Positions 3,541 through 33,535 of a stretch of 64,000 bases of DNA are shown here, in pieces. Under the pieces are notes generated by a model that was given only the letters and a program-made list of their open reading frames with translations, searched no databases and was not told the DNA's origin. The translations under genes were made by a program, and so were the position numbers. Source of the DNA: Ruminococcaceae bacterium OttesenSCG-928-I18 (GTDB lineage: Bacteria; Bacillota; Clostridia; Oscillospirales; Ruminococcaceae); the NCBI GenBank assembly GCA_030266325.1, contig JAJDHT010000003.1, positions 1 through 64,000 of the forward strand. The letters are read 5' to 3'. Each line of letters begins with the position of its first letter. Within the stretch, counting starts at the first letter, position 1.

Positions 3541-3765
3541 AGACGGCAGTACATCCGTACGGCAAGCCCCAGTTTACTAAGGTTGGAAGGGTGGTCTTGA
3601 AAAGGCCGGCCTAGGTGGCAGCCACACCCGCCGGATTTACGGGTTCGCCCCGATCGAAGCGGCTTTGCGCCGTGGAGAGAAAGGCGAAAAGAGCACCGGT
3701 GGATAATCTGCCGCGTAAGCAGGCCCTACAGCCTCCCAATAATACATATGAACTGGAGGGATACT

Positions 3766-5052
3766 ATGCGTTTGGAAATTGGCAACATCTTTATTAAAGA
3801 CGTGCAATTCGGCGATAAAACCGAAGTGAAAAGCGGCACGTTATTTGTCAATAAAGATGAACTGGCCAAGATCGCCGGCGATGATGAACGAATCAAGTCC
3901 GTTGAAGTTTTCCTGGCCCGTCCGGGAGAATCGGTTCGCATCATTCCGGTGAAGGATGTCGTGGAGCCCCGCGTAAAAGTGAGCGGTGACGGCGGCATTT
4001 TCCCGGGCTTTATGACCGGGGTGGACCAGGTGGGAAGCGGACGCACACACGTGCTGAAAGGCGCGGCGGTCGTCACCACCGGCAAGATCGTTGGTTTCCA
4101 GGAAGGCATCATCGACATGAAGGGCGCGGGTGCGGAATACACCCCCTTCTCGAAAACCAACAACGTGGTTGTCAAGGTGGAGCCGCTCGATGATCTCAAG
4201 CAGCACGAGCACGAAGTGGTGGTCCGCCTGGCGGGCTTCCGCGCGGCAAACTATCTCGGCGAAGCGGGCAAAGACGTCAAAGTGGATGAGGAAAAAGTCT
4301 ATGAGACCAAACCCATCCTCGAGCAGGTGAAGGAATACCCGAATCTGCCCAAAGTCGTCTATGCCTACATGCTGCAGACCCAGGGCCTACTGCACAACAC
4401 CTATTACTATGGGGTGGACGTAAAACAGATCGTACCGACTTTCATGTACCCGACGGAGGCCTTTGACGGGGCCATCACGAGCGGCAACTGTGTGTCCGCC
4501 TGTGACAAAAACCCCACCTACGTGCATGAAAACAGCCCGGTGATCACCGACCTGTTTGAGCAGCATGGCAAGACCATCAACTTCCTCGGCTGTGTGGTGA
4601 CCAACGAGAACGTCACGCTGATGGACAAAGAGCGTTCTTCGAACATGACCGCCAAACTCGTCGAGTTCCTCGGCGCCGACGCGGCTATCATTTCCGAAGA
4701 GGGCTTCGGCAACCCCGATGCGGACCTCGTTATGAACTGTAACAAGATCGAGGGCAAGGGCGTGAAGACCTGTCTGATCACCGACGAATATGCCGGTCAG
4801 GACGGCGCTTCCCAGTCCCTGGCGGACTCGACCCCCAAGGGCGACGCCTGCGTCACCGCCGGCAACGCCAATGTAGTGGTCACCCTGCCTGTGATGGACA
4901 CCGTGATCGGCTACCCCGAAGTGGCCAATGTCATCGCGGGCGGCTGGGACGGCAGCTTGAATGCCGACGGCAGCATCACCGCGGAGATCCAGGTCATCAC
5001 GGGTGCTACGAACGAGCTCGGCTTCAATTACCTCACGGCAAAGACCGTCTAA
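3766..5052 (+). CDS. grdE: Glycine reductase complex component B, alpha/beta proprotein (GrdE)
   Basis: MRLEIGNIFIKDVQFG start with RBS GGAGGG; AITSGNCVSACDKNPTYVHEN autocleavage motif with the Asn-Cys junction at 4486-4491 (Cys242). Confidence 0.95.
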   Translation: MRLEIGNIFIKDVQFGDKTEVKSGTLFVNKDELAKIAGDDERIKSVEVFLARPGESVRIIPVKDVVEPRVKVSGDGGIFPGFMTGVDQVGSGRTHVLKGAAVVTTGKIVGFQEGIIDMKGAGAEYTPFSKTNNVVVKVEPLDDLKQHEHEVVVRLAGFRAANYLGEAGKDVKVDEEKVYETKPILEQVKEYPNLPKVVYAYMLQTQGLLHNTYYYGVDVKQIVPTFMYPTEAFDGAITSGNCVSACDKNPTYVHENSPVITDLFEQHGKTINFLGCVVTNENVTLMDKERSSNMTAKLVEFLGADAAIISEEGFGNPDADLVMNCNKIEGKGVKTCLITDEYAGQDGASQSLADSTPKGDACVTAGNANVVVTLPVMDTVIGYPEVANVIAGGWDGSLNADGSITAEIQVITGATNELGFNYLTAKTV

Positions 5053-5110
5053 AACTTAGAAACAGTTTAGGACGGCGTACTAAAAATAATAAAAAAGGAG
5101 ACATAGCGTT

Positions 5111-5560
5111 ATGGGCATTCTTAACGGCAAAAAAGTCGCTATTCTGGGCGACCGCGACGGAATCCCTGGTCTGGCGATCGAAGAGTGCGTGAAGCCTGCC
5201 GGCGCAGAAGTGGTATTCAGCACAACCGAATGCTTCGTCTGAACCAGCGCAGGCGCCATGGACCTCGAGAATCAGGCTAGGATCAAAGATCTGGCAGAAA
5301 AATACGGCAACGAAGACTTTATCGTTCTTTTGGGTGGAGGCGAAGCGGAAGCTTCCGGCCTCGCCGCCGAAACCGTATCTGCCGGCGATCCTACCTTCGC
5401 AGGTCCTTTGGCTGGGGTCCCGTTGGGACTCAAAGCGTACCACATCCTTGAGCTCAAGGACGAGATTGATCCCGCAATCTACGAAGAGCAGATCTCCATG
5501 ATGGAGATGGTGCTGGACGTGGACGCCATCAAAAAAGAGGTTGCGGAATATCGCGGCTAA
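5111..5560 (+). CDS. grdA: Glycine reductase selenoprotein A (GrdA), Sec at TGA 5240-5242 (residue 44)
   Basis: [55 protein letters not shown]...KKEVAEYRG; the ORF track splits it at the UGA but the frame is open on both sides. Confidence 0.95.
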
Positions 5561-5600
5561 TCCAGCCGATACCAGAGTATATAGAAAAGGGGGAAATAAG

Positions 5601-6899
5601 ATGAGCAAAACGAGAATCGTGCATTATATCAACCAATTCTATGCCGGTATCGGTGGCGAAGACAAAGCTGATGTGCCGCCCGAGAAACGCGACGGCATCG
5701 TTGGCCCTGGCATGGCTCTTTCAAAAGCCTTGGAAGACGTGGCGGAGATTGTAGGCACCGTGATCTGCGGTGACAGCTACTTTTCCGAGAACGAGGAGAG
5801 CGCATCTAAGGTGATCCTCGACATGATCAAGAGCTACGATCCCGAATTGGTTGTCGTCGGCCCTGCCTTTAACGCCGGACGTTACGGCGTGGCGGCCGGT
5901 GGCGTCGCCAAACTCGTAACCGAGAACCTGGAGCTGCCCGTAGTGGGCGGCATGTACATCGAGAACCCCGGTCTCGAGATGTACAAAAAGTACGGCTATT
6001 TCGTGGAGACGGGCAACTCTGCCGCCACCATGAAGAAAGCCATCCCCGACATGGTGGCTGTGATCAAACAGGTCATCGCAGGGGAAGAGGTTACCGGTTA
6101 TGTGCCGAAGGGCATCCGTGTCAATTTCTTCGCTGAAGAGCGCGGCTCCAAGCGCGCGGTGGATATGCTGCTGAAGAAGATCAAGGGAGAGGAATTCCAG
6201 ACGGAATATCCGATGCCTGTCTTCGACCGCGTCGATCCTCAGCCGGCGATCAAGGATATGAAGAAAGCCAAGATCGCGCTGGTCTCTTCCGGCGGCCCGG
6301 TGCCGAAAGGCAACCCAGACCATATCGAGTCTTCCAGTGCTTCCAAATTTGGAAAGTACAGCCTCAAGGATATCGATAATTTCGATTCCTCGAACGGCGA
6401 GACGGCCCACGGCGGTTACGACCCCGTGTACGCCAACGAAGACCTCGACCGTGTACTCCCGGTGGACGTCATCAAAGAGATGCTGAAAGCCGGCGAGATT
6501 GGCTCGCTGCATGATTATTGGTATGCGACGGTTGGCAACGGTACTTCGGTTGCCAATGCAAAGAAATTCGGAAAGGCAATTGCCGAGGAACTCAAAGCCG
6601 ACGGTGTCGACGGCGTGATCCTCACCTCCACTTGAGGCACCTGTACACGTTGCGGTGCAACGATGGTGAAAGCAATTGAAGAAGAAGGATTCCCTGTAGT
6701 TCATATGTGTACTGTCGTGCCGATCTCCCTCACGGTGGGCGCGAACCGTATCGTCCCAACAGTGGCGATTCCTTATCCGCTGGGCAACCCCGCTCTTGAC
6801 CCGGCCGACGAGAAAGAGCTGCGCCGGAAACTGGTCGAAAAGGCTTTGAAAGCCCTGCAGACTGAAGTGACCGAACAGACCGTGTTTAAAGATGAGTAA
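5601..6899 (+). CDS. grdB: Glycine reductase component B selenoprotein gamma subunit (GrdB), Sec at TGA 6633-6635
   Basis: MSKTRIVHYINQFYAGIGGEDKADVPPE...DGVILTST-U-GTCTRCGATMVKAIEEEGFP...QTVFKDE; ORFs 5541-6635 and 6663-6899 are one frame. Confidence 0.95.
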
Positions 6900-22415: not shown

Positions 22416-22428
22416 AGGAGTGTTGAGT

Positions 22429-23421
22429 ATGCCTATGAGTTTGAGTGGCCGGTCTTTCCTCACCTTACTGGATTATACCCCCGAGGAAATGCGCTATCTG
22501 CTGGATCTGTCTACAGAGTTTAAAAGACTCAAGCGCAACGGGGTGCTGCACAGGCATCTGACCGGAAAAAACATCGTGTTGTTGTTTGAAAAAACCTCCA
22601 CACGCACCCGTTGTTCCTTCGAAGTAGCCGGGGCGGATCTGGGGCTTTCGGTGACCTATCTGGACGCGGCGAGTTCCCAGATGGGGAAAAAGGAGAGCAT
22701 TGCAGACACGGCGAGGGTGTTGGGTGGCCTATATGACGGGATCGAGTACCGGGGCTTCCGCCAGGAAACCGTTGAGCTGCTTGCCGAACAATCGGGGGTG
22801 CCCGTCTGGAATGGTCTGACGGACGAATTCCACCCCACGCAGGCCCTGGCCGACCTGATGACGATAGAAGAACAATTTGGCCGCCTCAAGGGCATGCACG
22901 TCACCTATATGGGAGACGCGCGCAACAATGTGGCAAACTCCCTGATGATCGGCTGCGCCAAGATGGGTGTGCATTTCACCGCCTGCGCGCCCAAAGACCT
23001 TTTGCCCGCGGCGGGGCTGGTGAAACGCTGCGAGGAGATGGCCGCACAGCAGGGCGGCAGTGTGCGCCTGACGGAGGATGTCGACGAAGGCGGCAAAAAC
23101 GCCGACGCACTGTATACCGATGTCTGGGTCTCTATGGGGGAACCCGAGCAGGTGTGGGAAACGAGGATCAAGCTCCTGAAACCCTACCAGGTGAACCGTG
23201 CGGTCATAGATAATGCCAATGACGATGTTATTTTCCTGCACTGCCTGCCCTCTTTCCACGACCGGAATACCTCGATAGGGGAGGATATCTACGCAAAATT
23301 CGGCCTCGAAGAGATGGAAGTGACAGACGAGGTATTTGGCTCGCGCCATTCGAAAGTTTTCGAGCAGGCGGAAAACCGGATGCACACCATCAAAGCACTG
23401 ATGTATGCCACGCTTTCCTGA
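22429..23421 (+). CDS. argF: Ornithine carbamoyltransferase
   Basis: [22 protein letters not shown]...[15 protein letters not shown]...HCLPSFHDR. Confidence 0.96.
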
Positions 23422-24829: not shown

Positions 24830-27800
24830 TCAGCTTTTCTGTCCGGTTTTGATGGTGCCGATGTCGACCATGGTGCAGTCTTCCAAAGTGGTGCCGCGCA
24901 GCAGGCAGTTGGCAAGTGCATTGGCGGTGTCGAGGCTTGTCAGTGTGGCGATGTTGCGCTCAATGGCGCGGCGGCGCAGCTGGGTGGAGAGACGGGCAGG
25001 TTTGCGGCCAATGCGGCTGGTGCTGACGACGAAATCCACTTCTCCCGTGTCGAACAGCGCCTTTGTGCTCTCAGGGGCGTCGTCACTGAGCTCCACCACC
25101 CGGGAGATGATGCCGTGTTCGCGCAGTTTGGCGGCCGTTTGTGGGGTGGCGGAGATGGAGTAGCCGAGTTTTACAAATTTCCCGGCCAAAGGCACGGCCT
25201 CTTCCTTGTCCTCATCGCGCACGGCGAACAGCACGGTACTGCCCACCTTGTGCAGTTCATACCCTGCGGCGAGCAGGCCTTTGAACAGGGCGTTTTCCAG
25301 ATGGTAGTCGATGCCCATAACCTCACCCGTGCTCTTCATCTCAGGGCCAAGATGGGTGTCGGCATCTTGCAGCTTGGGGAAGCTGAAAACGGGCACTTTT
25401 ACGGCCACCATGCCATTTTCGGCACCGAGGCCGGTACCCCAGCCCATGTCCTTCAGTTTTTCCCCCAGCAGGGCCCGGGTGGCAAGGTCGACGGCAGGGA
25501 TGCCCGTCACCTTGCTGATAAAAGGTACGGTGCGCGAGGCGCGCGGGTTCACTTCGATGACGTAAACTTTTTCTTTGTGCAGGACATACTGGATATTCAT
25601 CAGCCCCACGACGCCCAGTTCTCTCACAAACCGGCCGGTGTACTCAACGACGGTATCCAGGACGGTTTGGGGCAGGTTTTGAGGCGGCCACAGGCTGATG
25701 GAATCCCCCGAATGGATGCCCGCGCGCTCGATGTGTTCCATAATGCCGGGGATCAGGAAGTCTTCTCCGTCGCAGATGGCGTCTACCTCCACCTCGGTCC
25801 CCGTAAGGTACTGGTCGATGAGGATAGGGGAGCTCGGGCGTTCGCCACCGGTGATGATATCCATATATTCCCGCACATCGCTTTCGCTGTTTGCGATGAT
25901 CATGTTTTGCCCGCCCAACACATAGCTGGGGCGTAACAGCACGGGGTATCCCAGTGCCCCGGCGGCACGGACGGCCTCTTCCTTGGTGTATACGGTCTCC
26001 CCTTTGGGCCGCGGGATGTGCAGCCGCTCCGTCAAAGCGTCGAACCGTTCGCGGTCCTCCGCCTCATCCACTGCGTCTGCGCTTGTGCCAAAGATGGGAA
26101 CCCCGGTTTTCTGCATATGTTTTGCCAGCCGGATGGCCGTTTGACCGCCAAACTGCACAACTACACCGTCGGGCTGTTCTGTGGCAAGCACGGCGTTGAC
26201 GTCGTCGGGAGTCAGGGGTTCGAAATAAAGCCGGTCACTCATATCGAAATCGGTGGAGACGGTTTCGGGGTTGTTGTTGATGAGGATGGCCTCATGTCCC
26301 ATGGAGCGCAGTTGTTGCACACAGCGTACACTGCAGTAATCAAACTCTACCCCCTGCCCAATGCGGATGGGGCCGGAGCCGAAGACAACCAGCTTCTTGC
26401 CCTTTTTTGGGTGGCTTTGGATAAATTCGGAGGCCTCGTTCTCCCTGTCACAACTCGAGTAGAAGTAAGGGGTTTCCGCCTCATACTCGGCCGCGCAGGT
26501 GTCTACCATTTTAAAACCGACAGGTAAAGGGTTTTCGGGAGAAGCACCACAATAACGCTCGATCAGCCCGTCCGTGAAACCTGCGCGGCGGGCGGTCTCG
26601 TATCGCTCTTCATCCAAGGGCCCCTGCGCCAGGGCTTTCTCTACCTCTGCAATATGCAGCATTTTGTGGGTAAAAAAGGGGTCCACACCGGTCAGCTGAA
26701 AAATCTGTTCGGGGGAGACCCCCTTTTTCAGCGCCGCGTAGATCAGGAAAAACCGCTCATCGGTCGCCTCAGAGAGCATCTCAAGCAGTTTGTCCTGCGG
26801 GGTATCGGAAAGGCCCGGAAGGTTGAGGTCGTCCATGCCCTGCTCGAGGCACCTCACGGCTTTCATCAGGGCCTCCTCCAGGCTTTGGCCGATGGCCATC
26901 ACCTCGCCGGTTGCCTTCATCTGGGTGCCCAGTTCCCGGTTGGCATAGACAAATTTGTCGAAGGGCCAGCGGGGGAACTTGAGCACAATATAGTCGATGG
27001 AAGGTTCAAAACAGGCCTTTGTTTTGCCGGTGACGGCATTCGGTATTTCGTCCAGGGTGTAGCCAATGGAAATCAGGCTGGCCACCTTGGCAATGGGGTA
27101 GCCCGTCGCCTTGGAGGCCAGCGCCGAGGAGCGGGACACCCGGGGGTTCACCTCTATGACACCGTACTCAAAACTGTCTGGGCGCAGCGCATACTGGATG
27201 TTGCACCCGCCTTCGATGCCAAGGGCCTGCGCGATGCGCATGGCCGAAGAACGCAGCATTTGGAATTCCTTGTCGGCCAGGGTGAGGGCGGGGGCCACAA
27301 CGACCGAGTCTCCGGTATGAACACCCACGGGGTCCAGGTTTTCCATGCTGCAAACCGTGATGATGTTACCCGCAGAGTCTCGCATGAGCTCGAACTCGAT
27401 CTCTTTCCATCCGCTGACGCTTTTCTCGACAAGCACCTGGCGGATGGGTGACAGGGAGAGGCCTTTCTCTGCGATGGAGCGGAGTTCAACCTCATTTTTT
27501 GCCATGCCTCCGCCGGTGCCTCCCAGCGTGTAGGCGGGGCGCACGATGACGGGGTATCCAATTTCTTGGGCGATCACAAGCGCCGCATCCAGCGTGTTTG
27601 CGATGTCGCTTGGGATGGCCGGTTCACCCACACTCTCCAGCATGTCTTTAAAAAGCTGCCGGTCTTCGGCTTTATCAATCGTGTCCAGCCTGGCGCCCAG
27701 AAGCCGGACATTTTGTGCTTCTAAAAACCCACTTTTCGCGAGCTGCATCGCAAGGGTCAGGCCGGTCTGCCCGCCCATGGTGGAGAGCAGCGAGTCCGGT

Positions 27801-28046
27801 TTCGTCTCTTTTATAATCCTTTTGAGAACAGGCAGGGTCAACGGTTCGATGTACACTTCGGTTGCCATCTGTTTGTCGGTCATGATGGTAGCGGGGTTTG
27901 AATTGACCAAGATCACCTCGAGCCCGGCTGCCATCAAAGCCCGGCACACCTGGCTGCCGGCATAGTCGAACTCGGCCGCCTGGCCAATGACGATGGGCCC
28001 GGAACCGATCACAAGAACCCGTTTGATTTCCTTACGAAGCGGCATA
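24830..28046 (-). CDS. carB: Carbamoyl-phosphate synthase large subunit
   Basis: MPLRKEIKRVLVIGSGPIVIGQAAEFDYAGSQVCRAL...; duplicated ATP-grasp halves (VFGSGPIRIGQGVEFDYCSV). Confidence 0.97.
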
Positions 28047-28084
28047 TAGTTTCCTCCGAATGGCATAGGTAAAGGGGTCTTTTT

Positions 28085-29170
28085 TCATCTGTTTTCCATC
28101 ATCTGGATGAAATCATCGAACAAAAAGAGGGTGTCTTCAGGACCGGCGCACGCCTCTGCATGGAACTGGACAGAAAAAGCGCTGAGGGCAGGGTAACGGA
28201 TTCCCTCGACGCTGCCGTCGTTTGCGTTGAGGTGGCTGACCTGGCCGGCCCGTATGCTTTCGGCCAAGACCGAATGGCTGTGGCCCTGGCTTGTGATATA
28301 GGTGCGGCCGCGCTGCAGGTCTGTCACAGGCTGGTTTTCCCCGTGGTGGCCGAAGGGGAGTTTTTCGCTTTTTGCGCCCAGGGCAAGGGCGAGCAGCTGG
28401 TGGCCAAGGTCGATGCCAAATAGAGGAAGCCCAAACGTGGTGAGCTTTTGTATGTTGCCAAACAACGCGGACAGTTCCTCCGCGTCGCCAGGTCCGTTGG
28501 AGAGCAGAAGCCCGTCCGGGGACAACACCGCCGCTTTGTCGGCGGGATAATCGAAGGGTACGGCCACCACTTCACAGCCTCGCAGGCAGAGCTGCCGGAT
28601 CACGGAATTTTTCACGCCAAAATCATAGAGCACAACCTTGTGTTTCCGTACTCCCTCGGCGGGAAAGCCCGTGGGCTCCTTGCGGCTGACATGGCGCACG
28701 GCGTTCCGCAGTGGCCGCTCTTTTTGCAGCCCGGCACAAAATTGCCGGAGATCTTCGGGAAGCGTGTGCACCAGAGCACCGACGAGTGTACCCTTTTGGC
28801 GCAGGTGTCTTGTGAGGCTACGCGTGTCGATGCCGGCAAGGCCGGGCACCCCGTGATCCCGCAGAAAGAGGTCGAGGTTCACTTCGCTTCGAAAGTTGCT
28901 GGGATGGGCACACCACTCCCGCGTCACATAACCGGCAGGCCATACACGGGACGACTCGGAATCGAGGGAATTGAGACCATAATTGCCGGCGGAGGGGAAG
29001 GTTTGGCACAAGATGGTGCCGATGTTACCCGGGTCGGTCAAGCTCTCCTGATAGCCACTCATCGAAGTGGTGAAAACCACCTCGCCGATGGTGTCGGTCT
29101 CTGCCCCGAAAGCATGTCCGGGATAGACGGTTTCGTCTGCAAGAATCAGATAGGCTTTGTTATTCGGCAT
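28085..29170 (-). CDS. carA: Carbamoyl-phosphate synthase small subunit, glutaminase domain with Cys-to-Asp at the nucleophile
   Basis: MPNNKAYLILADETVYPGHAFGAETDTIGEVVFTTSMSGYQE...; LFGIDLGHQLLALALGAK in place of GICLGHQ; VQFHAEA retained. Confidence 0.95.
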   Translation of the reverse strand: MPNNKAYLILADETVYPGHAFGAETDTIGEVVFTTSMSGYQESLTDPGNIGTILCQTFPSAGNYGLNSLDSESSRVWPAGYVTREWCAHPSNFRSEVNLDLFLRDHGVPGLAGIDTRSLTRHLRQKGTLVGALVHTLPEDLRQFCAGLQKERPLRNAVRHVSRKEPTGFPAEGVRKHKVVLYDFGVKNSVIRQLCLRGCEVVAVPFDYPADKAAVLSPDGLLLSNGPGDAEELSALFGNIQKLTTFGLPLFGIDLGHQLLALALGAKSEKLPFGHHGENQPVTDLQRGRTYITSQGHSHSVLAESIRAGQVSHLNANDGSVEGIRYPALSAFSVQFHAEACAGPEDTLFLFDDFIQMMENR

Positions 29171-29198
29171 GGAAGTCTCCTGTAATGAACATAGGGTG

Positions 29199-30380
29199 TC
29201 AGCTGAGTTTTTCGAGGACAGTTTGTAAGATGGAGAGCCCCTCTTTGAGCTCTTCCTTGCTGATGATGAGCGGCGGCAGCAGCCGAAGGCGACTTTTTGC
29301 AAGCAGGCAGAGCAGACCGCGGTTTTGGGCTTCCTCGCGCACGGACGCCGCCGTGATGGGAGGGGCAAAGCTGAGCCCCCACATGAGGCCTGCGCCGCTC
29401 ACCTGTGTCACAGAGGGCAGGGCGGCAAGCTGCTTATGAAACCACTGGCCCTTCTCCGCAACATCCTCCAAAAAGGCTTCATCCAGGCGGTCCATAACCA
29501 CGTTGGCGCCGGCGCAGCAGATGGGGTTCATGCCGAAGGTGGTGCCGTGTTCCCCTTTACCAAGGCTGTCGCTGCAGGTGTCGCGGAACAGCACGGCCCC
29601 GATGGGCAGGCCGCTGCCAAGCCCCTTTGCCAGGGTGACGATGTCAGGGTGCAGCCCATAGAGGCTGCTTGCGAGGAAATGCCCCGTGCGCCCAACGCCT
29701 GTTTGAATTTCGTCTGCGATGATCAGGATGTCTCTGGGGCGGCAGACCGACTCGATCATCTCCATATATTCTTTGTCGAAAGGAAGCACCCCCCCTTCCC
29801 CCTGAATCGGCTCGATCATCAGCGCACACACGTCCGGCCCCAATGCGGTGGCCAAAGCCGTGGCGTCCCCCGCGGGGATGTGCCGAAAACCAGGCACCAT
29901 CGGGTCAAAGTCCTTTTGCAGTTCGGTTTGGCCGGTGGCGCTCAGGGCAGCCATCGTACGCCCATGGAAGGAATTGGTGATGCTGAGGATGGTGCTGCGG
30001 TCCTTCCCGTATTTTTTTCTGGAGTATTTCCTGGCGGCCTTGATCGCTCCCTCGTTTGCCTCGGCACCGCTGTTGGCAAAAAAGACCTTGTCCATACCCG
30101 TGCGCTCGCACAGTTTTTTTGCCAGGAGGGCGCCCGGCTGTGTATAGAAGAGGTTGGAGGTGTGCTGCAAAAGCCCAGCCTGTTTACACACGGCCGCCGC
30201 CCATTCATCGTCACACCAGCCAAGGCTGTTCACCCCGATACCCGCGGTGAAATCGAGATAGGTTTTGCCCTCGGCATCCTTGACACGGCAGCCTTTGCCC
30301 TCGGTGAGGCACAGGCCGAACCGCCCATAGGTGGGCATAATATATTGTTCATCCAGATGTTTGGTTTCCGCAAAAGTCAT
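29199..30380 (-). CDS. argD: Acetylornithine aminotransferase
   Basis: YIMPTYGRFGLCLTEGKGCRVKDAEGKTYLDFTAGIGVNSLGW...; ADEIQTGVGRTG; operon context. Confidence 0.93.
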   Translation of the reverse strand: MTFAETKHLDEQYIMPTYGRFGLCLTEGKGCRVKDAEGKTYLDFTAGIGVNSLGWCDDEWAAAVCKQAGLLQHTSNLFYTQPGALLAKKLCERTGMDKVFFANSGAEANEGAIKAARKYSRKKYGKDRSTILSITNSFHGRTMAALSATGQTELQKDFDPMVPGFRHIPAGDATALATALGPDVCALMIEPIQGEGGVLPFDKEYMEMIESVCRPRDILIIADEIQTGVGRTGHFLASSLYGLHPDIVTLAKGLGSGLPIGAVLFRDTCSDSLGKGEHGTTFGMNPICCAGANVVMDRLDEAFLEDVAEKGQWFHKQLAALPSVTQVSGAGLMWGLSFAPPITAASVREEAQNRGLLCLLAKSRLRLLPPLIISKEELKEGLSILQTVLEKLS

Positions 30381-30392
30381 TATGGACTCCTC

Positions 30393-31271
30393 CTATTTCA
30401 GGTCCTTGGCAGCATAGAACAATGTACCGCTGCCGCGTACAGAGAATATTTCCAAAAGAATCGAGTGTGGGATGCGACCGTCGATGATGACAGCTTCGCC
30501 CACCCCTTTCGTCAGCGCCTCCACACAACCCATAATTTTGGGGATCATACCCCCCTCGATCACACCCATTTCGATGAGATCGGGCACTTCCCCCACCTCC
30601 ACGTTTGTGATGAGCGAAGAAGGGTCGTTTTTGTTCATTAAGAGCCCCGCCACGTCGGTCATGTTGACCAGCTTTGTGGCCCCGAGCGCGATGGCGATTT
30701 TGCAGGCGGCCGTGTCGGCATTGACATTGTAGGGGGTGCCGTCTTCCCCCACGCCGATGGTGGCAATGACAGGGATAAAGCCGGAATCGAGCGCAAAGCG
30801 GAGCAGAGTGGTGCGCACCTTGACGATTTCACCCACATAACCAAGGTCTTTTTGGGGGTCCTGGCTCTCCAGCTTGCGGCAGGACAGGATGGCCCCGTCG
30901 ATGCCGCAGAGGCCGATGCCGCGGCCCTTCAAAAGGGCGACAAGGTCTTTGTTTACCTTCCCGGCGAGCACCTGCTGCACCACGGCCATCGTCTCTTCGT
31001 CCGTGACGCGAAGCCCCTCGATAAAGCGGCTCTCTTTCCCGATGCGGTCCAGGCCCTCTGATATTTCAGGGCCGCCCCCGTGGACGAGCACCACCCTCAC
31101 ACCGATCAAACTCAGCAGCGTCAGGTCGCTCATGACGGCGTCCTTGAGCTCGGCACTTGTCATGGCGCTTCCGCCATATTTCACGACGATGGTCTTGCCC
31201 TTATATTTTTGTATGTAGGGCATGGCCTCCTGCATTACCTCGGCCATGACGCCGATTCTGGGTTCTTCCAT
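30393..31271 (-). CDS. argB: Acetylglutamate kinase
   Basis: TIVVKYGGSAM...VVLVHGGGPEI...VNADTAACKIAIALGA...GGMIPK. Confidence 0.96.
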   Translation of the reverse strand: MEEPRIGVMAEVMQEAMPYIQKYKGKTIVVKYGGSAMTSAELKDAVMSDLTLLSLIGVRVVLVHGGGPEISEGLDRIGKESRFIEGLRVTDEETMAVVQQVLAGKVNKDLVALLKGRGIGLCGIDGAILSCRKLESQDPQKDLGYVGEIVKVRTTLLRFALDSGFIPVIATIGVGEDGTPYNVNADTAACKIAIALGATKLVNMTDVAGLLMNKNDPSSLITNVEVGEVPDLIEMGVIEGGMIPKIMGCVEALTKGVGEAVIIDGRIPHSILLEIFSVRGSGTLFYAAKDLK

Positions 31272-31305
31272 AGCGCGGTTCTCTCCTTATCGTGGCAGGG
31301 GGTGT

Positions 31306-32526
31306 TTAGGTCCGGTAGTCCCCGTTGATTTTCACATAGTCATAGGTCAGGTCGCATCCCCAGGCGGTGCCGCTCTCCGTTCCGGATTGCAGGTCGATGA
31401 GCAGCTGCAACTCGTCTTCGGCAAGGATACGAGAGGCCTCTTCCTCGCTGAAAGGGCGGTGGGTGGCGTTTTCGCAGACAAGCACCTCCCCCGCGCTGCT
31501 TTTCAGAATCAGCGAGACTTTGTCCACGGGGAAATCCCCCTCGGTGTAGCCGATGGCGCAGAGAACCCGCCCCCAATTGGCATCTTCGCCAAACATGGCG
31601 GTCTTGCAAAGGTCGCTTGAGACGACCGTCTTTGCAACGCGCCTGGCGATCTCACCGCTGGGGGCACCGTTCACATGACACTCCAGCAGCTTCGTAGCTC
31701 CTTCGCCGTCTGCGGCGAGGGCACGGCACATCTTTACACAGATTGTGTGCAGCACCTCACGGAAGGTTTGATACTCACCGCTTGTCTCTTCGATGGGCTG
31801 GTTGCCCGCAAGGCCGCTGGCAAGAATGCTGACCATGTCATTCGTGGAGGTATCCCCGTCGATATAAAGCTGGTTAAAACTGTGGAGGATCTCCGCCTGC
31901 AGGGCCTGTTCCAGCAGGTCGCTGCCGATGGCCACGTCGGTGGTGAGGAAGACAAGCATGGTGGCCATGTTCGGGTTGATCATGCCACTGCCCTTGCCAA
32001 TGGCGCCGATGTGGCAGGTTTTCCCCCCGAGGGAAAATTCGTAGGCAAACTCCTTGTGTTTTGTGTCGGTCGTCAGGATGGCGTCTGCCGCGTCGGTGCT
32101 GCCCTCCCGGCGGAGAGCGGCGGCCAGCTTCGGCAGCCCCTTTTCGAACGGGGCGGTGGAAAGGGGCTGGCCGATGACCCCTGTGGAGGCGATGATAAAG
32201 TCTTCGGGCCGCAGGCCGGTTGCCTCGGCGGCCAGGTTACAGCAGGTTTGCGCGATGGCGGGGCCGTCGGGGTTACAGGTGTTCGCGTTGCCGCTGTTGC
32301 AGAGGATGGCCTTGGCTTTGCCGTCGGCCAGATGTTTCTGCGTGAGGTGGATCGGCGCGCCTTTCACCTTGTTTTGTGTATAGACAGCGGCGGCGTGGCA
32401 CGCTACGGAGCTCACAATGAGGGCGATGTCCGGTTTACTAGTGTTGTTCCGAATGCCGCAGTGCGCACCCGAGGCCATAAACCCTTCGGCGGCGCAGATA
32501 CCGCCGGGTATTTTTTTATATTTCAT
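31306..32526 (-). CDS. argJ: Bifunctional ornithine acetyltransferase / N-acetylglutamate synthase
   Basis: AAVYTQNKVKGAPIHLT...MINPNMATMLVFLTTDVAI...IDGDTSTNDMVSILASG. Confidence 0.96.
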   Translation of the reverse strand: MKYKKIPGGICAAEGFMASGAHCGIRNNTSKPDIALIVSSVACHAAAVYTQNKVKGAPIHLTQKHLADGKAKAILCNSGNANTCNPDGPAIAQTCCNLAAEATGLRPEDFIIASTGVIGQPLSTAPFEKGLPKLAAALRREGSTDAADAILTTDTKHKEFAYEFSLGGKTCHIGAIGKGSGMINPNMATMLVFLTTDVAIGSDLLEQALQAEILHSFNQLYIDGDTSTNDMVSILASGLAGNQPIEETSGEYQTFREVLHTICVKMCRALAADGEGATKLLECHVNGAPSGEIARRVAKTVVSSDLCKTAMFGEDANWGRVLCAIGYTEGDFPVDKVSLILKSSAGEVLVCENATHRPFSEEEASRILAEDELQLLIDLQSGTESGTAWGCDLTYDYVKINGDYRT

Positions 32527-32548
32527 CAGAAAAGAGATCCTTTCATTT

Positions 32549-32562
32549 TGTATATTTATACA
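32549..32562. promoter_or_regulatory. Candidate ArgR box near argJ start
   Basis: TGTATA TT TATACA palindrome. Confidence 0.35.
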
Positions 32563-32581
32563 GAGACTATCCGGTCGATGT

Positions 32582-33535
32582 TTAGAGCACAAGCCCCGAG
32601 GTCTCGGGCAGGCCCAGCATGAGGTTCATGCACTGAATTGCCGCCCCGCTGGCCCCCTTGCCCAGATTGTCAAAACGGGCGGCAAGCAGGATTTGCTCTG
32701 GATTACCCAGCGTGAATATTTCCAGCGTGTCCCGCCCGGCCATCCCTTTGGCGCTGAGCGTGCCGTCTTCGGGTAATTCACCGGCTTCGTGTACGGTAAA
32801 CAGGGGCTCGTCGGCATAGTATTGGGCATAAAGGGCGGCGAGGTCCTCGCCGCTTCGGTGCCTCGCGGAGAAACTGTGCATCGGAAGGGAGAGGTAAACC
32901 AGCATCCCGCAATAATAATCATCAACGACGGGGCAAAAAAGTGGGGGAGAAGGCAGCTTTGCAACGGCCTGCATTTCGGGGAGGTGCTTGTGCTGCAACC
33001 CGAGGGCATAGAGGCGGGGCGCGTTGTAGCTTTCGGGTTTGTCCGGCCCCTCGTAGGCGGCAATCATTTTCTTCCCGCCGCCCGAATAGCCCGTAAGGGA
33101 GTGGCACACAAGCGGTACATTTTTGGGCAGAACCCCCTGCTCCACCAAGGGCACGGTAAGCGCCAGAAAACCGGTTGCGTGGCAGCCGGGCACACAGACG
33201 CGCGAGGCAGCATGAACTTCTTTTCTTCGCGCAGACAGTTCGGGAAAGCCATACACCCAGTCCGGGTGGGTTCTGTAGGCGGTGCTTGTGTCGCATATGC
33301 GGGTGTGGGGGCTTGCCAGCTCCACGATTTCCCTGGAGGCGTGGTCGGGCAGGCAAAGGATGGACAGGTCGGCTTCCTCCATGGCGTGCAGGCGGGAGGG
33401 CAGGTCTTTTCTCTGCGCTTCGCCCAGCGTGAGGATGCTCAGATCCTGCCGGTCGGCCAGGCGCTCACGGATGCGCAGCCCCGTGGTGCCTTCGGCACCA
33501 TCGATAAACACCTTTTTTTCCGCCACATGGCTCAC
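32582..33535 (-). CDS. argC: N-acetyl-gamma-glutamyl-phosphate reductase (short type)
   Basis: VFIDGAEGTTGLRIRERLADR...VPGCHATGFLALTVPLV...SLTGYSGGGKKMI; GTG start ambiguous (33535 or a downstream GTG). Confidence 0.93.
   Translation of the reverse strand: MSHVAEKKVFIDGAEGTTGLRIRERLADRQDLSILTLGEAQRKDLPSRLHAMEEADLSILCLPDHASREIVELASPHTRICDTSTAYRTHPDWVYGFPELSARRKEVHAASRVCVPGCHATGFLALTVPLVEQGVLPKNVPLVCHSLTGYSGGGKKMIAAYEGPDKPESYNAPRLYALGLQHKHLPEMQAVAKLPSPPLFCPVVDDYYCGMLVYLSLPMHSFSARHRSGEDLAALYAQYYADEPLFTVHEAGELPEDGTLSAKGMAGRDTLEIFTLGNPEQILLAARFDNLGKGASGAAIQCMNLMLGLPETSGLVL

Follow-up and report, generated by a model that had tools for sequence, protein, structure and literature searches.

Gene content and organization of the carA locus

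The window, i.e. the whole 64,000-nucleotide stretch of DNA that was analysed, contains an arginine gene run in the order argC-argJ-argB-argD-carA-carB, with argF nearby. The features discussed below are as follows, where percentage identities refer to the genes at the same place in a second genome of the genus (G003) and residues named after E. coli are those of its CarA protein.

22420 to 23421, plus strand: argF, ornithine carbamoyltransferase, which consumes carbamoyl phosphate (TIGR00658, 417.9 bits, cut-off 280.85)
24830 to 28066, minus strand: carB, intact synthetase large subunit of carbamoyl-phosphate synthetase (CPS), 1078 aa (TIGR01369, PDB match, motifs)
28088 to 29170, minus strand: carA, Cys-less CPS small subunit, 361 aa (ORF, Pfam, NCBIfam, AlphaFold, Foldseek)
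28154 to 28162, minus strand: His337-Ala338-Glu339, triad His and Glu retained, Pro between them lost (alignment)
28274 to 28276, minus strand: His299 in place of E. coli Phe314, glutamine-site position (alignment)
28283 to 28285, minus strand: Gly296 in place of E. coli Asn311, glutamine-site position (alignment)
28409 to 28411, minus strand: codon GAC, Asp254, at the catalytic nucleophile position (E. coli Cys269; alignment)
29027 to 29029, minus strand: Gly48 in place of E. coli Ser47, glutamine-site position (alignment)
29199 to 30380, minus strand: argD, upstream in the same gene run (ORF; 63% identity)
30393 to 31271, minus strand: argB, upstream (ORF; 76% identity)
31306 to 32523, minus strand: argJ, upstream (NCBIfam TIGR00120 / NF003802, above cut-off)
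32582 to 33535, minus strand: argC, upstream (ORF; 67% identity over the gene end available for G003)

The carA frame runs from an ATG at 29170 to a stop at 28085–28087 and has no internal stop. Its product belongs to the CarA family, with both domains above the curated cut-offs (PF00988 CPSase_sm_chain, 147.5 bits; PF00117, class I GATase, 127.3 bits), and it scores 379.8 bits against NCBIfam TIGR01368 (cut-off 307.35), the model for the glutamine-hydrolyzing CPS small subunit. Because this model accepts the window protein, the Cys loss described below is likely hidden from automatic annotation. The AlphaFold model of CarA has a mean pLDDT of 94.9; in a Foldseek search with this model the best matches are E. 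coli CarA (1cs0/1c30, TM-score 0.94 to 1cs0), followed by human CPS1.

The adjoining carB encodes intact synthetase domains: CarB scores 1378 bits against TIGR01369 (cut-off 1027), matches E. coli CarB in the PDB with E = 5.5e-289 and keeps the ATP-grasp catalytic motifs. These motifs are also kept in the compared CarB partners of other Cys-less CarA proteins (34 rows in all, one of which lacks the first motif only, as that sequence starts late). An MGS-like C-terminal domain is also present in the window CPS.

Two minor features of the locus are of note. Most CarB proteins of the same kind as the window's have (V/L/I)GGQNM as their second ATP-grasp motif (residues 711–722 of the window CarB, about 25901–25936), and most pyr-type ones have VLGGRAM; the QNM form occurs with Cys-bearing and Cys-less CarA partners alike. 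G003 (loci L049/L165) has an argF-like gene between argD and carA that is missing from the window cluster (24830–33535), and the window argF stands apart on the opposite strand at 22420–23421.

The glutamine site of the window CarA

In the alignment to E. coli CarA (PDB 1c30), Asp254, His337 and Glu339 of the window protein correspond to Cys269, His353 and Glu355, respectively. The plus strand reads gtc at 28409–28411, within LPLFGIDLGHQLLALALG, which is GAC (Asp) on the minus strand. The first-pass annotation had claimed that CarA lacks the nucleophile Cys and retains the triad His and Glu; both statements hold, and the carA frame carrying the Asp254 codon is intact. Relative to what characterizes EC 6.3.5.5, the window CarA thus lacks the catalytic Cys of the nucleophile elbow and keeps the triad His and Glu. 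The first-pass annotation had further argued that a change from Cys to GAC is unlikely to be a simple base-call error, and this is confirmed by the two base changes needed and by the other conserved columns that are also changed (9 of 75, see below). Sequencing or assembly error is an unlikely source of the codon given the two-base change, the additional glutamine-site changes in the same protein and the dozens of other assemblies that show the same loss.

Following what is established for E. coli CPS, we take the glutamine-site positions to be Ser47, Lys202, Gln273, Asn311 and Phe/Tyr314. In the window CarA, Ser47, Asn311 and Phe314 are changed, and the Lys (Lys187) and the Gln are kept. At position 314, every one of the 86 Cys-bearing CarA proteins compared has Tyr or Phe, and the window has His. 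Conservation of 95% or more among Cys-bearing CarA proteins is seen in 75 alignment columns, nine of which are changed in the window. The number of such departures per row has a median of 0 (maximum 7) for Cys-bearing proteins and of 14 (minimum 6) for Cys-less ones. Judged from aligned residues, the window CarA is milder than most Cys-less CarA proteins, with the triad His and Glu retained, yet it falls inside their range by departure count. The presence of His337, Glu339 and Lys187, unlike in most Cys-less CarA proteins, counts against reading it as glutaminase-dead. The FGHHGENQPV segment, which had been flagged as unusual, proved to be uninformative and was ruled out as evidence of a dead site: Gln at that place (NQPV) is common among Cys-bearing relatives, and the His of GHHG is the E. 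coli residue.

Cys-less CarA proteins among related bacteria

Replacement of the nucleophile Cys is not confined to the window. An initial survey of 60 related genomes found Gly, Ser, Arg or Asp in its place in a dozen CarA proteins besides that of the window. A DNA pattern for the nucleophile block matches 233 of the 394 genomes of the window's order; when the Cys position is limited to codons not starting with T, it matches 27 of the 394, from 17 genera. This number is a minimum, since the restricted pattern misses TCN codons for serine as well as divergent motifs. Among pattern-positive genomes, Cys-less CarA is present in at least 27 of 233 in the order, and in 15 of 89 in the rest of the class and 4 of 97 in the rest of the phylum, where non-Cys codons were counted by eye among the matches listed. 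Two genomes of one family (G510, C4:43204; G558, C42:37747) have Glu, another carboxylate, at the nucleophile position (GIELGHQ).

A non-redundant set of 124 CarA proteins includes 38 without the Cys (28 Gly, 6 Ser, 3 Asp and 1 Arg); the set is enriched for Cys-less loci, so that 38 of 124 is not a frequency. The other catalytic and glutamine-site residues differ strongly between the two groups: (i) the triad His353 is kept in only two of the 38 Cys-less proteins (the window and L014), versus all 85 Cys-bearing proteins with that column; (ii) Glu355 is kept in 16 of 38 versus 84 of 85; (iii) Ser47 in 11 of 38 versus 83 of 85; and (iv) Lys202 in 13 of 38 versus 85 of 86. The other two Asp-bearing proteins (L068 and L069) have lost the triad His. 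Loss of these four residues would be the pattern expected once selection for glutamine hydrolysis ends.

Cys-less carA genes occur both in argCJBDF-carAB clusters and in pyrR/pyrC-carAB(-pyrK-pyrD) clusters. Fifteen genomes with a Cys-less CarA are at least 95% complete, and 12 of them show no Cys-bearing CarA; G112, G205 and G223 contain one of each kind. One of the 12 (G152, 98% complete) has two CarA proteins, both Cys-less, with Ala (GIALGCQ) in L185 (C24:259-786) and Gly in L134 (C18), which lies in an arg operon. The other class I amidotransferases read in the 15 near-complete genomes (GuaA, PyrG, HisH and TrpG-like) keep their Cys, so the loss looks specific to CarA; a glutaminase loss across all amidotransferases is ruled out for those read.

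Phylogeny and selection

Parsimony on the CarA tree, which was built without the trait columns, gives 18 state changes between Cys-bearing and Cys-less CarA, at least five of them forced by strongly supported branches; on the CarB tree, which is free of the faster evolution of CarA, it gives 17, at least seven of them so forced. Both counts are tied to the sequences that were sampled, and individual placements are uncertain where branches are long. The window CarA sits on a long branch of the CarA tree with unsupported placement, and on the CarB tree the window pairs with G003 at an SH-aLRT of 90, which is below the starred level and not decisive. G003 has its carA gene in an orthologous arg cluster, where ArgB is 76% identical, and the Cys is present in its product; together with the CarB pairing, this makes a change to Asp within the window's own lineage probable. 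The search covered all five genomes available for the genus. Cys-bearing CarA proteins are present in G001, G002 and G003, and the only hit in G004 was weak and proved to be another protein. Fixation of the Asp across the clade, a question raised by the first-pass annotation, is ruled out for the genus by the Cys in G001, G002 and G003, the last of these in the orthologous cluster.

Values of dN/dS for related Cys-less CarA pairs are 0.09–0.27 over both domains, similar to the 0.02–0.26 of Cys-bearing pairs, with synonymous sites fairly saturated in some pairs. The former range indicates that the Cys-less proteins are maintained. The median ratio of CarA to CarB terminal branches is 3.3 in Cys-less versus 2.1 in Cys-bearing lineages (p = 6e-7, uncorrected for kinship). 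The window's own ratio is only 1.5, which counts against the glutaminase-dead reading given below. Maintenance combined with faster CarA evolution fits the loss of one function and the retention of another.

Interpretation of the Cys-less enzyme

The best explanation for these results, and one we consider probable, is that the window CPS is glutaminase-dead in CarA, with CarB using free ammonia, and that it represents one of many independent conversions of bacterial glutamine-dependent CPS to an ammonia-only enzyme in clostridia-like anaerobes. This agrees with the first-pass annotation, which had predicted a glutaminase-dead, ammonia-dependent CPS like CPS I; the prediction gains support from the glutamine-site changes and from the triad loss in dozens of relatives. 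CarA would then be a structural, glutaminase-dead partner in a heterodimeric CPS, while CarB would make carboxyphosphate, capture free ammonia and proceed through carbamate to carbamoyl phosphate as usual. We infer that glutaminase activity is absent and that the nitrogen would be free ammonia entering the complex from solution, instead of being cut from glutamine at the CarA site; a bypass similar to the alternative ammonia entry of CPS1 is a possible route. Carbamoyl phosphate would here serve arginine synthesis, given the argC-J-B-D-carA-carB cluster with argF nearby.

Three other explanations were weighed. Ammonia could still come from glutamine through another glutaminase or ammonia-producing enzyme docked on or near CarAB, with CarA as the docking scaffold. 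A CarA that is dead by sequence yet under purifying selection should have a structural role, which could include docking. However, no consistent extra gene was recognised beside Cys-less carA genes in arg, pyr or other contexts when compared with an arg/pyr reference set, and the class I amidotransferases found in the window's own genome, GuaA and HisH, both retain the Cys and each have partners of their own; we regard docking as unlikely. Highly improbable, in our view, is that the window CarA hydrolyses glutamine by an altered chemistry, e.g. with Asp254 acting as a general base for water together with His337 and Glu339. Class I amidotransferase catalysis proceeds via a Cys thioester, positions 47, 311 and 314 (E. 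coli numbering) of the glutamine site are also changed, and the other Asp proteins, L068 and L069, lack the triad His; these points outweigh the retention of His337, Glu339 and Lys187 in the window and the carboxylates that other CarA proteins have at the nucleophile position (L068 and L069, Asp; G510 and G558, Glu).

The carA gene could also be a decaying or redundant copy heading for loss, made dispensable by a second, live CarA or by uptake of arginine and pyrimidines. The search for a second carA suggested by the first-pass annotation found none in the window's own metagenome-assembled genome (MAG), but this MAG is only 70.7% complete, and such a gene or a pyr-type CPS could be missing: the genus mates G001 and G002 have a pyr-type Cys-bearing CarA, some relatives pair one live with one Cys-less CarA, and the window's branch is long. 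Nevertheless, the ORF is intact, the predicted fold is confident and CarB is intact; Cys-less pairs elsewhere are under purifying selection, and Cys-less CarA is the only type seen in 12 of 15 near-complete relatives. The intact ORF and CarB, the predicted fold and the purifying selection on Cys-less pairs also stand against a pseudogene as the main reading. Even a live paired copy would not render the window copy non-functional, and decay therefore seems to us decidedly unlikely.

Comparison with known carbamoyl-phosphate synthetases

The window CarA resembles E. coli CarA (CPS II; PDB 1a9x/1c30/1cs0; EC 6.3.5.5) in length, two-domain fold, adjoining intact carB and operon contexts, but differs in having Asp for Cys and changes at Ser47, Asn311 and Phe314, so that glutamine hydrolysis is not expected. 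Like human CPS1 (PDB 5dot/5dou; EC 6.3.4.16), it combines, at the sequence level, an inactivated glutaminase-like domain, presumably kept as structure, with an intact synthetase for which free ammonia is the expected nitrogen source. Unlike in vertebrate CPS I, its subunits are separate ORFs rather than a single fused polypeptide, and its origin is independent, within bacterial CarA. Convergence with vertebrate CPS I is the best explanation of the likeness. The engineered E. coli CarA C269S (PDB 1c30, 1c3o) is altered at the same position with the small subunit otherwise folded, whereas the window change is natural, involves two bases, leads to Asp and is accompanied by further glutamine-site changes. 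The Pyrococcus carbamate-kinase-like CPS shares ammonia as nitrogen donor, as expected for the window, but belongs to an unrelated family with an amino-acid kinase fold (PMC6022934).

In human CPS1, Ser replaces the Cys and external ammonia is used; its structure paper describes a block of the ancestral tunnel and proposes another point of entry for this ammonia (PMC4655335). According to the same structure paper, every CPS type except CPS1 uses glutamine (PMC4655335), and a recent review holds that the donor used physiologically by E. coli CPS is glutamine, which it applies ‘by extension’ to all bacterial CPSases (PMC6245113). We found no report of a natural Cys-less bacterial CarA in the open-access literature, although one may be mentioned elsewhere; the window gene is one instance of a transition that recurs among anaerobic bacteria and has apparently gone undescribed. 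Ammonia serves E. coli CPS only at very high and likely non-physiological concentrations (PMC6245113). This counts against an ammonia-fed enzyme in the window, since a synthetase without further changes might use ammonia poorly; either the cells would be ammonia-rich or the affinity of the enzyme would have been raised.

On balance, we lean towards a broader reading in which bacteria have repeatedly produced ammonia-only CPS enzymes by discarding the CarA glutaminase, in both arg and pyr operons. Whole species would then make all of their carbamoyl phosphate independently of glutamine, and their enzymes would probably have either gained an open path for ammonia or increased their affinity for it. 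If ammonia use is true, (i) metabolic models of many anaerobes wrongly charge glutamine for arginine and pyrimidine synthesis and (ii) the transition from CPS II to CPS I is open to study in many natural replicates.

Nitrogen metabolism in the window and its genome

The window encodes glycine/sarcosine-type reductase genes (GrdG/GrdF-like, and component C), GcvT and SHMT. The first-pass annotation had proposed that glycine reductase and glycine cleavage release ammonia; the reductase, GcvT and SHMT genes are indeed present, which supports the proposal in part. A search of the window's own genome, 70.7% complete, gave neither an Amt-family ammonium transporter nor an aspartate carbamoyltransferase; the missing transporter would count against ammonia use but is uninformative at this completeness. 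A second carbamoyltransferase on another contig (L174, G000:C147) is YgeW (777 bits, cut-off 500), and its gene adjoins one for a YgeY-family hydrolase. The reductase-complex, GcvT and SHMT genes of the window, together with ygeW/ygeY, suggest an ammonia-releasing metabolism.

The reductase component B genes (3748–6635) score best against the sarcosine-type models GrdG and GrdF, below their cut-offs, and the substrate of component B may be other than glycine. The frame of its beta subunit (GrdB/GrdF-like, 5601–6635) stops at residue 344, where the profiles run to about 430; this frame end is probably an in-frame selenocysteine TGA.
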